Of a stretch of DNA of 64,000 nucleotides, positions 17,562 through 28,397 are shown piece after piece. The translations under genes and the position numbers were made by a program. The stretch comes from Leptolyngbya sp. PLA1. GTDB taxonomy: Bacteria; Planctomycetota; Phycisphaerae; Phycisphaerales; UBA1924. How positions within the stretch are numbered: position 1 is the stretch's first letter; every line of letters starts with the position of its first letter. Where the stretch lies: positions 1-64,000 of the forward strand of contig QWIH01000004.1 in assembly GCA_021405315.1 (NCBI GenBank). The letters run 5' to 3'. The notes under the pieces were generated by a model. It was given only the letters and a program-made list of their open reading frames with translations, had not been told where the DNA came from and did no database searches.

Positions 17562-19705
17562 CACTTCACGGGCTTGTAGGCGACACCGAGCGTGTTGAAG
17601 AGGAACGCCTGCACGTCGACCTGCTGCTCGATGCGCTCCGAGAGCGCCGTGCCGATGCCGTGCCCGCTGCTCATGCTCGTCCGCAGGTACGCCCTGGCGC
17701 CCGCCGCCTGCAGCCTCGCGGTCATCTTGCGGCTTTGCATCGGGTCCACGCGCGGGTCGTTGGCGCCCGTCAGGAAGAGCACGGGCGGGTACTTCCCGCC
17801 GTCCGTCACGTGGTGATAGGGCGAGTACGCGTGCAGGGCGCGGAAGTGCGCAGCGTCGGTCACCGTGCCGAACTCCGGGATGTTGAACGCCCCGTTCGCG
17901 GAGAGCTCCACGCGGAGCATGTCGTAGATGCCGACGTGGCTGATCACGCACCCGAGGAGCTCGGGTCGCTGGGTGAGCGTGGCGCCCATCAGCAGCCCGC
18001 CGTTGGACCCGCCCTCGATGGCGGTCCGCTCCGGCCTGGCGTACCCCTGCTTCTGGAGGTGGGCGACGACGCCCGCGAAGTCGTCGAAGACGTTCTGCTT
18101 GTTGGTGAGGTTGCCCTCGCGATGCCAGCGGTCGCCGTACTCGCCGCCGCCCCGCAGGTTTGCCTGGGCCCACACGACGCCCTGCTCGAGGAGCGCGAGG
18201 CGCCCGCCGTTGAACCCGGGCTCGAGGTTCACGCCGTACCCGCCGTAGCCGGTGACCAGCAGCGTGCCGGAGCCATCAAGGGCGGTGCCCTTCCTGCGGA
18301 GAATGTTGACGGGGACCCTGGTGCCGTCCTTGGAGGGCGCGAACTCTCGCACCACTTCATAGTCGTCGAAGGAGAAGGGATACTGGCTGGAGATGGGCGC
18401 CTTGGCGAGCGTGGCGGGGGAGGCGGGATCGAAGACCATCCACGCCGTGGGGCTGACGTACGACCCGACACTCATCATGACCTTGCCGCCACCGATCGCG
18501 GTCAGACCATGGGCCGCGGAGACCGGCGGGAGCGCGGGCTTGGCGAGTTGCTTGCCCGAGTAGTCGAACACGCGGACCTCGGAGGGCCCCCCGAGCTGGT
18601 ACTGGGCATAGATCACATCTGGCGTTGCGAGCAGATTGCTGGCCTCGAAGAACTCGTCGGCGAGGGTGTCCTCGGACTCGGGCACGAGCGTGCGGGCCTT
18701 GGCCAGCGTCGGCGCCGACGCGTCCAGCACCAGCAGTTTGCCCTTGGGCGCGTTCAGACGGCTGACCATCACAACCCCGCCGTCGGGCGCGAAGGTCGCC
18801 TGCACCACGCGGTCCTCATACCTGGTGAGCTGGGTCCACTCGCCCGCGGGCGAGCGGCGGTAGTGCTGGAACTCCCCGCCGTCCCCCTTCTGCATGGAGA
18901 CGAGCACCGCGCCCTTCGCGGGCCCGGCCGGCAGACACTCGACGACGATCTCCGCGATGCGGGGGAAGTCCTTGCCGATCTCGTAGCGGTCCTTCTCGAC
19001 CGGCGTGCCGAGTTCGTGGAAATAGAGCTGGACGTAGAAGTCCATGTCCGCCTCCGGGCGCTCGCCCGCGCGCGGATACCGGGTGTAGTAGAAGCCCTTG
19101 GAGTCCGGGGCCCAGGCGAGCGATCCGCCCGCGGTCCCGCCGTTGACCCTCTCGATCTCCTCGAACACCTGCTTGCCCGTGGCGACCTCGAAGACGCCGA
19201 CGTCGCCGGACTCGCTCCCGCCCTTGGAGAGGGAAACCGCGACAAGCGAGCCGTCGGGGCTCGGCACGGCCCAGTCCATCGAGACCCCGCCATGGTCGCT
19301 CATCGTGTTCGGGTCCACCAGCACCCGCTCTTTGTCCGGGTGCATGGGCGAGGGCATGACCACCAGGAACGGCTGCTGCTTCGGAGGCTGCCTCTTGATT
19401 GCGAAGAACTGCCCGCCGAAGGTCCCCACGCTGCCATAGGACGGTGTCGAAACGCTGAGCAGCGCCGTGGCCCGCTCACGGATCGCCCCCACATTGGGCA
19501 GCGCGTCGAGCATCTCCCTCGCGTAGGAGTTCTGCGAGGCGGACCACTCCTGCACCTCTGTGGAGTTCCAGTCCTCCAGCCAGCGGTACGGGTCCACGAC
19601 CTTGGTGCCGTGGTACTCGTCGGTCGCCGGCTTCTGGGGTGTGGCGGGGGGGTTCGTGGCGAGAATAACCGCAATGGCGGGCGCGAGCACGGGCAGCATC
19701 GGCAT
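17561..19705 (-). CDS. prolyl oligopeptidase (family S9A)
   Basis: This 714-residue serine peptidase cleaves after proline in short peptides, and its length is normal for the family. It has a beta-propeller at about 80-430 and an alpha/beta-hydrolase domain. The nucleophile sits in GGSNGG (about 565-570), the acid in LTGANDPRVDP (about 648) and the His in SSGHGIGT (about 682). The N-terminus holds a hydrophobic stretch that could export the protein, followed by the family segment VVDPYRWLEDW. GGGAGG lies 5 nt before the ATG. It lies 71 bp after the carbonic-anhydrase-like gene on the same strand. Confidence 0.9.
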   Translation of the reverse strand: MPMLPVLAPAIAVILATNPPATPQKPATDEYHGTKVVDPYRWLEDWNSTEVQEWSASQNSYAREMLDALPNVGAIRERATALLSVSTPSYGSVGTFGGQFFAIKRQPPKQQPFLVVMPSPMHPDKERVLVDPNTMSDHGGVSMDWAVPSPDGSLVAVSLSKGGSESGDVGVFEVATGKQVFEEIERVNGGTAGGSLAWAPDSKGFYYTRYPRAGERPEADMDFYVQLYFHELGTPVEKDRYEIGKDFPRIAEIVVECLPAGPAKGAVLVSMQKGDGGEFQHYRRSPAGEWTQLTRYEDRVVQATFAPDGGVVMVSRLNAPKGKLLVLDASAPTLAKARTLVPESEDTLADEFFEASNLLATPDVIYAQYQLGGPSEVRVFDYSGKQLAKPALPPVSAAHGLTAIGGGKVMMSVGSYVSPTAWMVFDPASPATLAKAPISSQYPFSFDDYEVVREFAPSKDGTRVPVNILRRKGTALDGSGTLLVTGYGGYGVNLEPGFNGGRLALLEQGVVWAQANLRGGGEYGDRWHREGNLTNKQNVFDDFAGVVAHLQKQGYARPERTAIEGGSNGGLLMGATLTQRPELLGCVISHVGIYDMLRVELSANGAFNIPEFGTVTDAAHFRALHAYSPYHHVTDGGKYPPVLFLTGANDPRVDPMQSRKMTARLQAAGARAYLRTSMSSGHGIGTALSERIEQQVDVQAFLFNTLGVAYKPVK

Positions 19706-24397: not shown

Positions 24398-24877
24398 GCC
24401 GCCCACCCCCGAGGCACGGGGCGCCCCGGAGCGGAACTACTGGTGGCCCGACGGCTTCGGTCTCGCTTTCCGCTTCTCTTTTTCGGCGGCATCTCGGGCC
24501 TCTCTGACCCCGGGGCCAACGTCAACCCGCCAGCCGGCCCCACGGCACCTCTCGTCGGGATCAACTCCTTGTGGGTAAGCTCCGCCGCCCTCGCCCGCTG
24601 TCGTCATGCAAAATATTGCAATTAAACACCTTAGACCATTCTTGCCTTGGCGTTCACCGGCACGCCTACCACCGTTCTTGCCTCTCAGCCGCAGCCCGGA
24701 CTCGTCCTCGCCCCTCCATCAGACTTGACTCGGGACCTGCTCCAAGCCGGAATGACTCACGGGATGCACACCGCTCGGCCGACTTGACACGCAACCCCGC
24801 CGGACCTTTCCTAGCCGACGGCACCAAGCCGACGCTTGGATTGTGATTGGTGTTTGGTTGGGTGTTGGTTTTTCAGA
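24398..24877. other. 480-bp non-coding region before topA
   Basis: I see no convincing gene here. It contains an AT-rich island (about 24605-24632) in a GC-rich background, with the short inverted repeat TGCAA-AATA-TTGCA. Two direct repeats, ACCATTCTTGCCT (24635-24647) and ACCGTTCTTGCCT (24671-24683), differ at one base. GACTTGAC occurs at 24722-24729 and again at 24781-24788. The last 60 bp before topA are T/G-rich. Confidence 0.5.
24784..24812 (+). promoter_or_regulatory. candidate sigma70-type promoter for topA
   Basis: TTGACA at 24784-24789 matches the -35 consensus. TTTCCT follows after 17 bp as a modest -10. The predicted leader to the topA ATG at 24878 is about 60 nt. Confidence 0.4.
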
Positions 24878-27682
24878 ATGGCCAAGAAGCCTGCTAAAAC
24901 TGCGAAAGCCACCAAGAAGCGAGCCGACGCCAGCGCGGAGCCTCCCGCGGCCGAGGCGGCGCCCGCCCCATCCAAGGGAGGTCGCTTCCGCCGGCAGGCA
25001 ACAACGGCGTACAAGCCTGGGGCTGGCAAAGACCGCCATCTTGTCATCGTCGAGTCCCCTTCCAAGGCCAAGACGATCAATAAGTACTTGGGGCGAGACT
25101 ATTTGGTGCTCGCGAGCGTGGGCCATGTCCGCGACCTGCCCAGCCGAAACCCAAAGGGTGTCAAGAGCCCCGTGCCGGGAGTGGACCTCGAGCACGACTT
25201 CCGCCCGACGTACGCCATCAGCGAGGGCAAGGAGCGGGTGATCGCCGACCTCAAGAAGGCGGCGAAGGAGTCCCAGGCTTCCGGCTGCGACGTCTGGTTT
25301 GCGACCGACTTGGACCGTGAGGGAGAGGCCATCGCCTGGCACCTCTCACAGGAACTCGGGATCGCCGCGTCGAAGGCCAAGCGGGTCGTCTTTCCCGCGA
25401 TTACCAAGTCGGAGATCGAGCGTGCCTTTCAGCACCCGCACCCGATCAACGAAGACCGGGTGAACGCGCAGCAGGCCCGGCGCATCCTCGACCGCATCGT
25501 CGGGTACCAGGTGTCCCCCCTGCTCTGGAAGAAGGTCGCGCGAGGGCTTTCGGCCGGGCGCGTGCAGAGCGTCGCGGTCCGGGTCGTCGTCGAGCGTGAG
25601 CGCGAGATTCGCGCCTTCGTGCCCGACGAATACTGGACCGTCGGCGCGTGCTTCACGCACGAACTTGCGAAGGCCGCGGGGCTCGCGAAGGACTGGCAGA
25701 CCCTGCTCGCCCGGCGCGATGAAAAGGGAAACCCTCCCACGCAGCGCCTGCAGAACGCCTGGCTGGGCGAGCACGCCGGCTTCCGAGCCGAACTGATCGA
25801 GGTTGGAGGGGAGAAGTTCGACATCCGCACGCTCGCGTCCAAGGGCGAGCCGTGGCCGGACCTTTCGCCCCGCGTCAAGAGCATCGCGTCGCTCGTCGGG
25901 CTTCGCAACGTCCGGTCGGCCGCCGCGGAGGACGCCAAGGGACGCGGACCCGCCCGCACCGTCCGGGAGGTTGTGGGCGATGTCGACCCGGGCACGCCCT
26001 ACCGCGTGAGCTCGGTGGAAACCAAGCGCACCACCAGCCGCCCGCCCGCGCCGTTCATCACGAGCACCCTGCAGCAGGCCGGCGCGAGCCGCCTGGGCTT
26101 CGCCGCCCAGCGGACGATGCGGACCGCGCAGCAGCTCTATGAGGGCGTCGAGATTCCCGGCGAGGGCCCCGTCGGGCTCATCACCTACATGCGTACGGAC
26201 TCCACGCACCTTTCCGCCGACGCCATCGACATGGTGCGGTCGTACGTCAAGGCCAAGTTCGGCGAGCGATACCTCCCGGAACGTGCGAACATCTACACCT
26301 CGTCGAACAAGGACGCGCAGGAAGCCCACGAGGCCATCCGCCCGACCTCACTCGACTACCCGCCCGCCAAGGTTCGCAACGCCCTCTCCCCCGACCAGCT
26401 CAAGCTCTACACGCTGATCTGGGAGCGCTTCGTCGCCTGCCAGATGGTCCCCGCGCAGTGGGACGCCACCAGCGTGCTCATCACCGGCGGCACCGATCCC
26501 AAGACCCCCTGCGTCTTCCGCGCGGGCGGACGCAGCCTCGTGTTCGATGGCTTCTACAAGGTCGCGGGTGTGCCCCAGGCCGGCGACGAGCAGCACCTGC
26601 CCGTCCTCGCCGAGGGCGCACACCTCGCGCCCTTCGCCCTCGACGCCCAGCAGAAGTTCACCAGCCCGCCCGCGAGATTCTCCGAGGCGAGCCTCATCAA
26701 ACTGCTGGAGTCCGAGGGCATCGGCCGCCCCAGCACCTACGCCTCCATCATCTCCACCATCCAGGACCGCAACTACGTCGCCAAGGAGAGCGGCCGGTTC
26801 TACGCCACCGATCTCGGTGAGGTCGTCACCGACAAACTCCTCGAAGCCATCCCCGACATCATGGACGTCGGCTATACCCGCGACATGGAGGGCCTGCTCG
26901 ACAAGGTCGAGGACGACCACCTCGACTGGGTCGACATGCTCCGCAAGTTCTACAAGCCCTTCAAGCAGCAGCTCGCCGCCGCGGAGAAGGACCTGGTCCA
27001 CGCGAAGGCCGAGACCCGCCCGGCGCCCGCCGAGCTTTCCTGCCCCCAGTGCGAGAAGGAGGGCCGGGGCACCGTCCCGCTGGTCTACCGCTTCGGGAAG
27101 AACGGCCGGTTCCTTTCCTGCTCGCTCTACCCCGAGTGCAAGTGGGCAAGCCCAGTGGATAGAGAGGGCAACCCCAGGCCCGCCGCGGAGACCGTCGACG
27201 TCGCCTGCCACAAGTGCGGCTCGCCCATGACCAAGCGCGTCGGGCGCTTCGGGCCCTTCCTGGGATGCTCGAAGTTCGGCGACAAGTCGGCCCCCTGCGA
27301 CGGCATCCTCAACCTCGACAAGAAGGGCCGGGTCGAGGCGCCCGGCGTCCCGCCGCTCACCACCGACATCCAGTGCGGCGTGTGCAAGTCACGCCCGCTC
27401 TATCTCCGTGGCGGCGTCCGGGGCCCCTGGCTCAGTTGCTCGGGCTTCCCCAAGTGCCGCGGGCGGGGCAAGTGGGCCGACCTGCCCGAAGACCAGCGCG
27501 TGGCCCTTGAGAAGGCCCTCGCCGCACACGAAAAGGCCAACCCCGTGCCGATCATCCGCACGATGGCCGGTGCCCCGCTGACCGACGCCAAGGGCAAGCC
27601 CCTGCCCACCGCCGCGCCCGTCGGCGTCAAGTCCGACGAGCCCGAGACGCTCGAAGCGGTCGCGGATGAGATCGGGGTGTGA
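24878..27682 (+). CDS. topA: DNA topoisomerase I (type IA)
   Basis: This 934-residue enzyme relaxes negative supercoils. A Lys/Ala-rich N-terminal extension of about 45 residues (KKPAKTAKATKK) precedes the TOPRIM domain (LVIVESPSKAKTINKYLG; ATDLDREGEAIAWHL). The active-site Tyr lies in ITYMRTDST near residue 436. The C-terminus carries three four-Cys zinc ribbons from about 720 on, starting CPQC, CHKC and CGVC. ATG at 24878 is preferred over 24836, which would add an implausible Cys/Trp-rich leader. No strong Shine-Dalgarno sequence is present. Confidence 0.95.
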   Translation: MAKKPAKTAKATKKRADASAEPPAAEAAPAPSKGGRFRRQATTAYKPGAGKDRHLVIVESPSKAKTINKYLGRDYLVLASVGHVRDLPSRNPKGVKSPVPGVDLEHDFRPTYAISEGKERVIADLKKAAKESQASGCDVWFATDLDREGEAIAWHLSQELGIAASKAKRVVFPAITKSEIERAFQHPHPINEDRVNAQQARRILDRIVGYQVSPLLWKKVARGLSAGRVQSVAVRVVVEREREIRAFVPDEYWTVGACFTHELAKAAGLAKDWQTLLARRDEKGNPPTQRLQNAWLGEHAGFRAELIEVGGEKFDIRTLASKGEPWPDLSPRVKSIASLVGLRNVRSAAAEDAKGRGPARTVREVVGDVDPGTPYRVSSVETKRTTSRPPAPFITSTLQQAGASRLGFAAQRTMRTAQQLYEGVEIPGEGPVGLITYMRTDSTHLSADAIDMVRSYVKAKFGERYLPERANIYTSSNKDAQEAHEAIRPTSLDYPPAKVRNALSPDQLKLYTLIWERFVACQMVPAQWDATSVLITGGTDPKTPCVFRAGGRSLVFDGFYKVAGVPQAGDEQHLPVLAEGAHLAPFALDAQQKFTSPPARFSEASLIKLLESEGIGRPSTYASIISTIQDRNYVAKESGRFYATDLGEVVTDKLLEAIPDIMDVGYTRDMEGLLDKVEDDHLDWVDMLRKFYKPFKQQLAAAEKDLVHAKAETRPAPAELSCPQCEKEGRGTVPLVYRFGKNGRFLSCSLYPECKWASPVDREGNPRPAAETVDVACHKCGSPMTKRVGRFGPFLGCSKFGDKSAPCDGILNLDKKGRVEAPGVPPLTTDIQCGVCKSRPLYLRGGVRGPWLSCSGFPKCRGRGKWADLPEDQRVALEKALAAHEKANPVPIIRTMAGAPLTDAKGKPLPTAAPVGVKSDEPETLEAVADEIGV

Positions 27683-27893
27683 GCGGTCTTGCGGGGTGCT
27701 CGCGGCTTTCCACGCCCGAGGTCGCACCCCGCTTTCAGGTCGGGAGCAGACGTGCGAGCCCGTCCGGTCTGCGCGGTGATCTGCGCGGGGTTCGCAGCCA
27801 TCTGCGTTCCTGCCGCGTCGGCTCTATCGCGGAGGGGCCCCGGGGCGGGCATGTCCTGTCGCGGAGGGGTCGCCAACTCCCCCCAAAACGCAA

Positions 27894-27917
27894 CCGACCG
27901 GGCACGGGCCCGGTCGG
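27894..27917 (-). terminator. intrinsic terminator hairpin for the minus-strand (FlgM-like) transcript
   Basis: CCGACCGGGC and GCCCGGTCGG form a perfect 10-bp stem with a 4-nt loop. On the minus strand the stem is followed by TTGCGTTTT, a T-rich tail. The plus strand lacks a T-run after the stem, so termination of topA there would be weaker. Confidence 0.6.
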
Positions 27918-27931
27918 ATGTTCGCTTGGTT

Positions 27932-28107
27932 GGGGCCCCCGAGCAGCACGGAGGGGGTAGTTCGTGTGGTGGTTCGTGGCCTGAGGTCCGAACCGGGGTA
28001 GGGCTCGTAGGTTTCGACGGCGGGCGGTCTCTCTCTCGCCCGTTCTCTCTCCGCCGCTCTCTCCTCGCGTCTCGTCCCTTTCCTCCTCCGCGCTGCTCGG
28101 GGGCCCC
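27932..28107. repeat. 16-bp perfect inverted repeat enclosing about 144 nt (candidate structured RNA)
   Basis: GGGGCCCCCGAGCAGC at 27932-27947 is the exact reverse complement of 28092-28107. After one mismatch, CGGAGGGGG can pair with CCTCCTCCG inside it, using one G-U pair on the plus strand and giving one mismatch on the minus strand. The interior holds a further nested hairpin around 28018-28056. On the minus strand it would lie in the 3' region of the FlgM-like transcript, just before the terminator. The strand and function are not established. Confidence 0.5.
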
Positions 28108-28124
28108 TGTCCGGGCTCGAAACT

Positions 28125-28397
28125 CTACAGGTCCTTGAGCAGTTCCTCAACCGCCGCCTCGACCCTGTCGGGTGTGTCGTACTCGCCCCGGGAAATCTCG
28201 TCGCGCACCCGGTCCACCAGTTCCTGGCGGATCGGCAACTGGCGGATCTTTGCGAGATAGGTGGCCAACTCGGATACCTCCACGTGATCTGTCCCCCGCC
28301 GGATGGTCGGCGCGGCCTCGTCCTTCCCCGCCCGCGCGTACGCAGCGGCGGCGGGGTGAATCGCACGGGTACGGTCAATCGGAGCAAGCTCTGTCAT
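28125..28397 (-). CDS. FlgM-like anti-sigma factor
   Basis: This 90-residue protein has a C-terminal half typical of FlgM: DHVEVSELATYLAKIRQLPIR followed by LVDRVRDEISRGEYDTPDRVEAAVEELL. FlgM inhibits the flagellar sigma factor until it is exported. No flagellar gene is in the window, so the role here is inferred from the family only. GGAG lies about 8 nt before the ATG. Confidence 0.75.
   Translation of the reverse strand: MTELAPIDRTRAIHPAAAAYARAGKDEAAPTIRRGTDHVEVSELATYLAKIRQLPIRQELVDRVRDEISRGEYDTPDRVEAAVEELLKDL

Follow-up and report, generated by a model that had tools for sequence, protein, structure and literature searches.

Here, we describe, in a planctomycete, a long hairpin in the non-coding gap between topA and a flgM-like gene, which is single-copy in its genome, strongly constrained in a sister species and followed on the minus strand by a conserved intrinsic-terminator-like hairpin. 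Judging from the sequence comparisons, the hairpin may form a structured 3' UTR of the flgM-like mRNA on the minus strand, from which RNase III might cut a stable RNA, and we give this reading about an even chance of being right. The hairpin is a good candidate and not a proven RNA. Throughout, the window denotes the whole stretch of 64,000 nucleotides that was analysed, and all coordinates refer to it.

The topA gene (24836-27682, plus strand), which encodes DNA topoisomerase I with the Pfam domains Topoisom_bac, Toprim and Zn_ribbon_Top1, converges on the flgM-like gene (28125-28397, minus strand), whose 90-aa product is placed in the anti-sigma-28 factor family by a score of 25.1 bits with Pfam FlgM (PF04316), just above the cut-off of 25. 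The preliminary description held that the 442 bases between the two genes lack a credible gene, and we agree: coding sequence in the hairpin region was rejected because the sister species carries a single-base insertion at 28061 and no reading frame is conserved. In the direction of the minus strand, the flgM stop codon is followed by a short spacer (28108-28124), the 5' arm of the hairpin (28082-28107; the 3' arm on the plus strand), a 124-nt interior (27958-28081) with purine-rich AGAGAG tracts that read UCUCUC on the plus strand, the 3' arm (27932-27957; the 5' arm on the plus strand) and, about 15 nt beyond the long hairpin, the terminator-like hairpin (27894-27917) with 10 pairs, a loop of 4 and a T-rich tail reaching to about 27886. 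The topA-side spacer (27683-27885 on the plus strand) is poorly conserved and carries a long deletion in the sister species.

The inverted repeat on which the preliminary description was centred was recovered in full, with a perfect 16-bp stem (27932-27947 pairing with 28092-28107) that encloses 144 nt and is extended, after one A/C mismatch, by six pairs, one G-U pair (on the plus strand) and two more pairs. The arms (27932-27957 and 28082-28107) are 26 nt each, are 92% complementary and total 25 pairs, and the whole hairpin measures about 176-183 nt. This is the strongest inverted repeat of the window, the longest within a 300-nt span, and is beyond chance: when the entire window was shuffled 40 times with dinucleotides preserved, a perfect arm of 16 appeared a single time, and the longest arm with one mismatch was 23 against a maximum of 18 in these shuffles. 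The runner-up in the window (18841-18863 with 19052-19074; 23 nt, 83%) lies within a coding region, and 400 kb of the genome were sampled for the comparison of inverted repeats. Compared with shuffles, the region 27885-28125 has predicted fold z-scores of -6.43 on the plus strand and -6.46 on the minus strand; the two strands fold equally strongly, the fold energy being lower on the plus strand. Since the interior (27958-28081) folded alone is no better than shuffles (z -0.29 on the plus strand and -0.61 on the minus strand), the fold signal of the region comes from the arms, and the nested hairpins suggested earlier for the interior are not significant.

In a set of 163 genomes from the taxonomic family, the hairpin is present in the sister species alone (G005, Phycisphaerales bacterium isolate SJ502, contig JADYXW010000015.1), where it occupies the same site between topA and a flgM gene whose protein is 99% identical. 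No further copy was found in these 163 genomes, nor in the plasmid and phage collections searched, and when a second genome collection was queried with FlgM, the sister species again was the sole hit. In the other relatives inspected, flgM does not adjoin topA and is not followed by a comparable hairpin; some other flgM genes of the genus or family carry a short terminator only (e.g. locus L033), and the other arm-like or CT-rich matches inspected in relatives are situated in unrelated sequence that has no hairpin of this kind. Four further genera of the family have long inverted repeats of unrelated sequence just 3' of topA, within the first 220 nt after the stop codon (L083 in G019, L076 in G013, L074 in G018 and L072 in G016), the one in G019 comprising 26 perfect base pairs.

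The window and the sister genome are collinear with 86% identity, and the hairpin, with 97.3-97.8% identity against a mean of 82% for the non-coding sequence of the window, ranks first in conservation among the non-coding stretches of 185 nt, the runner-up outside the locus reaching 92.4% (the stretch at 28117 in this ranking is flgM, overlooked by the simple gene call). Both arms are identical at 26/26 positions and the interior differs by four substitutions and one inserted base. This conservation has sharp edges on both sides, as four substitutions and one deletion fall within the 17 alignment columns that separate flgM from the hairpin (identity 75%; Fisher p 4.5e-4 when compared with the hairpin), and in the topA-side spacer 79 of 205 columns are identical and 96 gapped, much of its length being unalignable. 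Four-fold sites differ at 59/193 positions in topA (about 31%; p 3e-14 against the hairpin) and at 6/50 in flgM (12%), with the hairpin lower still (p 0.014). Because the hairpin is so much better conserved than the non-coding sequence, the adjoining spacer and the topA four-fold sites, the comparison argues for selection acting on the element itself. Compensatory changes, put forward earlier as support for an RNA, are absent from the stem, where 0 of 52 arm positions changed and no base pair is altered between the two sequences compared.

Part of the conservation of this block could be due to recent exchange, because flgM is less diverged than its neighbours. If the flgM block had recently been exchanged between both lineages by homologous recombination, as its lower four-fold divergence relative to topA would allow, the constraint on the hairpin would be only apparent; the diverged spacer between flgM and the hairpin argues against this, as does a hairpin that has diverged less than even the four-fold sites of flgM, and we regard such an exchange as highly improbable. 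The arms resemble terminal repeats and the presence of the element is patchy, as would be expected if a small MITE- or REP-like mobile element bounded by terminal inverted repeats had left a remnant here, but the chance of this appears extremely remote given the single copy in the genome, its absence elsewhere from the family genomes, plasmids and phages, the edges without visible target duplication and the strong constraint. Selection could also act on DNA rather than RNA, for example on a cruciform or on two binding sites arranged as a palindrome, and without compensatory changes the two kinds of selection are indistinguishable. However, the 124-nt interior is conserved almost like the arms, and a position between stop codon and terminator is typical of RNA, which makes an element acting at the DNA level quite improbable.

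With regard to strand, the 10-bp hairpin with a T-rich tail reported earlier on the minus strand (27917-27894) was confirmed, one such terminator being found against 0.5 expected, and its stem is the same in the sister species, with differences confined to the loop and flanks; past it, the alignment of the two genomes decays. The terminator scan found none on the plus strand, where the long hairpin ends without a T tract. Of the two strand hints in the preliminary description, the terminator favouring the minus strand was strengthened by its conservation, and the G-U pair of the arms, being A-C on the minus strand, counts against a minus-strand reading. We favour a 3' UTR of flgM because both hairpin-bearing genomes place flgM, the hairpin and the terminator in this sequence on a single strand, with the terminator stem unchanged, and because the plus strand has neither conserved upstream sequence nor a terminator. 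RNA polymerase would read past flgM into the short spacer and then into the hairpin, which would be closed by the 16-bp helix continuing to 25 pairs, and transcription would end at the intrinsic terminator. The long duplex would protect the flgM mRNA against exonucleases acting at its 3' end, and the duplex would be long enough for a substrate of RNase III, so that this enzyme might cut the interior free to yield a stable small RNA. The earlier proposals are in this way partly supported: the constraint speaks for a functional element and the conserved arrangement on the minus strand for a long 3' UTR or a processed small RNA, and an independent non-coding RNA on the plus strand is disfavoured.

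Such a plus-strand small RNA, whether independent or derived from topA, could pair through its UCUCUCUC loop with purine-rich ribosome binding sites, and UCUCUCUC is indeed exposed in a GGGCGG/UCGCCC hairpin in the predicted plus-strand fold, which also retains the G-U pair lost on the minus strand and has the lower energy. The diverged sequence at 27683-27885 offers no conserved upstream promoter, though, and with no plus-strand terminator and an interior z-score of only -0.29 we judge this explanation very unlikely. Possible, if rather unlikely, is that the hairpin marks a transcription boundary between the convergent topA and flgM genes, which would limit read-through or protect both mRNA ends without giving rise to a small RNA. 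The convergence of the two genes, the strong folding on both strands and the unrelated inverted repeats after topA in four other family genomes are consistent with such a boundary, but a pure stem would not need an interior conserved at 97%, and on the plus strand the long hairpin has no T tract and no terminator was found.

The 3' UTR proposed for flgM has both parallels and differences with known systems. In Campylobacter jejuni, the small RNA CJnc230 (FlmE) is located 3' of flgE and acts in trans to repress flgM mRNA (PMC11187230). The arrangement is similar in that an RNA would lie 3' of a flagellar gene, CJnc230 being co-transcribed and having a stem-loop with a proposed RNase III cut, but the RNA here would follow flgM itself, its transcription and processing are putative, and the parallel drawn is one of arrangement. 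In E. coli, four UTR-derived small RNAs are under sigma-28 control (PMC10578931), which likewise connects UTR-derived RNA with flagellar control; unlike there, the best sigma-28 promoter-like match upstream of flgM is equalled by about 7% of shuffles, and whereas Hfq is among the keywords of that paper, no Hfq gene was detected in the 92%-complete genome studied here (G000). Two CsrA genes were seen in this genome, on contigs 56 and 19 (85.9 and 50 bits). With a GC-rich stem at an mRNA 3' end, the element also resembles intrinsic terminators and protective 3' stem-loops, but it differs from terminators in its 176-nt length, its 124-nt interior and its lack of a T tract, the terminator being the separate 10-bp hairpin.

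The Rfam check called for in the preliminary description did not assign the element to a known class: with Rfam 15, the window gave no match at the gathering threshold, and the best sub-threshold scores of 12-13 bits are at chance level. The 11-mer GGTTTCGACGG at 28009-28019 (within 28009-28022) is similar to a tmRNA 5' end, but we attribute this to chance because the tmRNA of the genome was located on contig 12 (158 bits) and the sister species has lost or never had the motif; the tmRNA model was not matched either. A CsrA sponge was also considered and rejected, as the minus strand has eight GGA but one ANGGA, most of them paired, leaving too few exposed sites.

A short CT-rich similarity, itself due to chance, led from the window hairpin to locus L098 with tandem hairpins, and thereby to a well-supported separate family of same-strand hairpins, each about 135 nt long, with 18 members in eight other genomes from five genera of the taxonomic family. 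They occur in arrays of one to five (L111 1501-1969 in G089; L110 1501-1814 in G090; L112 1318-1637 in G134; L113 632-1636 in G133, with five copies; L114 1501-1821 in G119; L115 1501-1634 in G131; L116 1501-1637 in G130; L118 1307-1637 in G186), share a conserved tract, CUCUCUC, along with a core resembling GAAGGAGUGUCGUGUCGU, and have compensatory changes in 12 of 18 arm pairs. Neither the family nor locus L098 had a match in Rfam at gathering level; in a sample of 400 genomes of the order no member turned up beyond the taxonomic family, and no shared neighbouring gene was recognised in the open reading frame lists. Two covariance models were built from these hairpins, R1 and R2, the latter from 18 members. 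R2 gave no hit in the genome under study or in the sister genome and, with filters off, a local match of 2.8 bits to the window hairpin, which R1 also fails to recognise; we therefore claim no kinship between the two.

The window hairpin is a non-coding element with clear boundaries and under strong constraint. It is tied to a gene for flagellar control and occurs in a group of bacteria on whose small RNAs our literature search turned up little. Speculatively, and with a probability that we consider low, flgM may even yield a trans-acting 3' UTR RNA, released by RNase III and independent of Hfq, from one transcript with the anti-sigma factor. If the reading as a 3' UTR RNA is true, it would extend UTR-based flagellar control to an organism without a detected Hfq gene.
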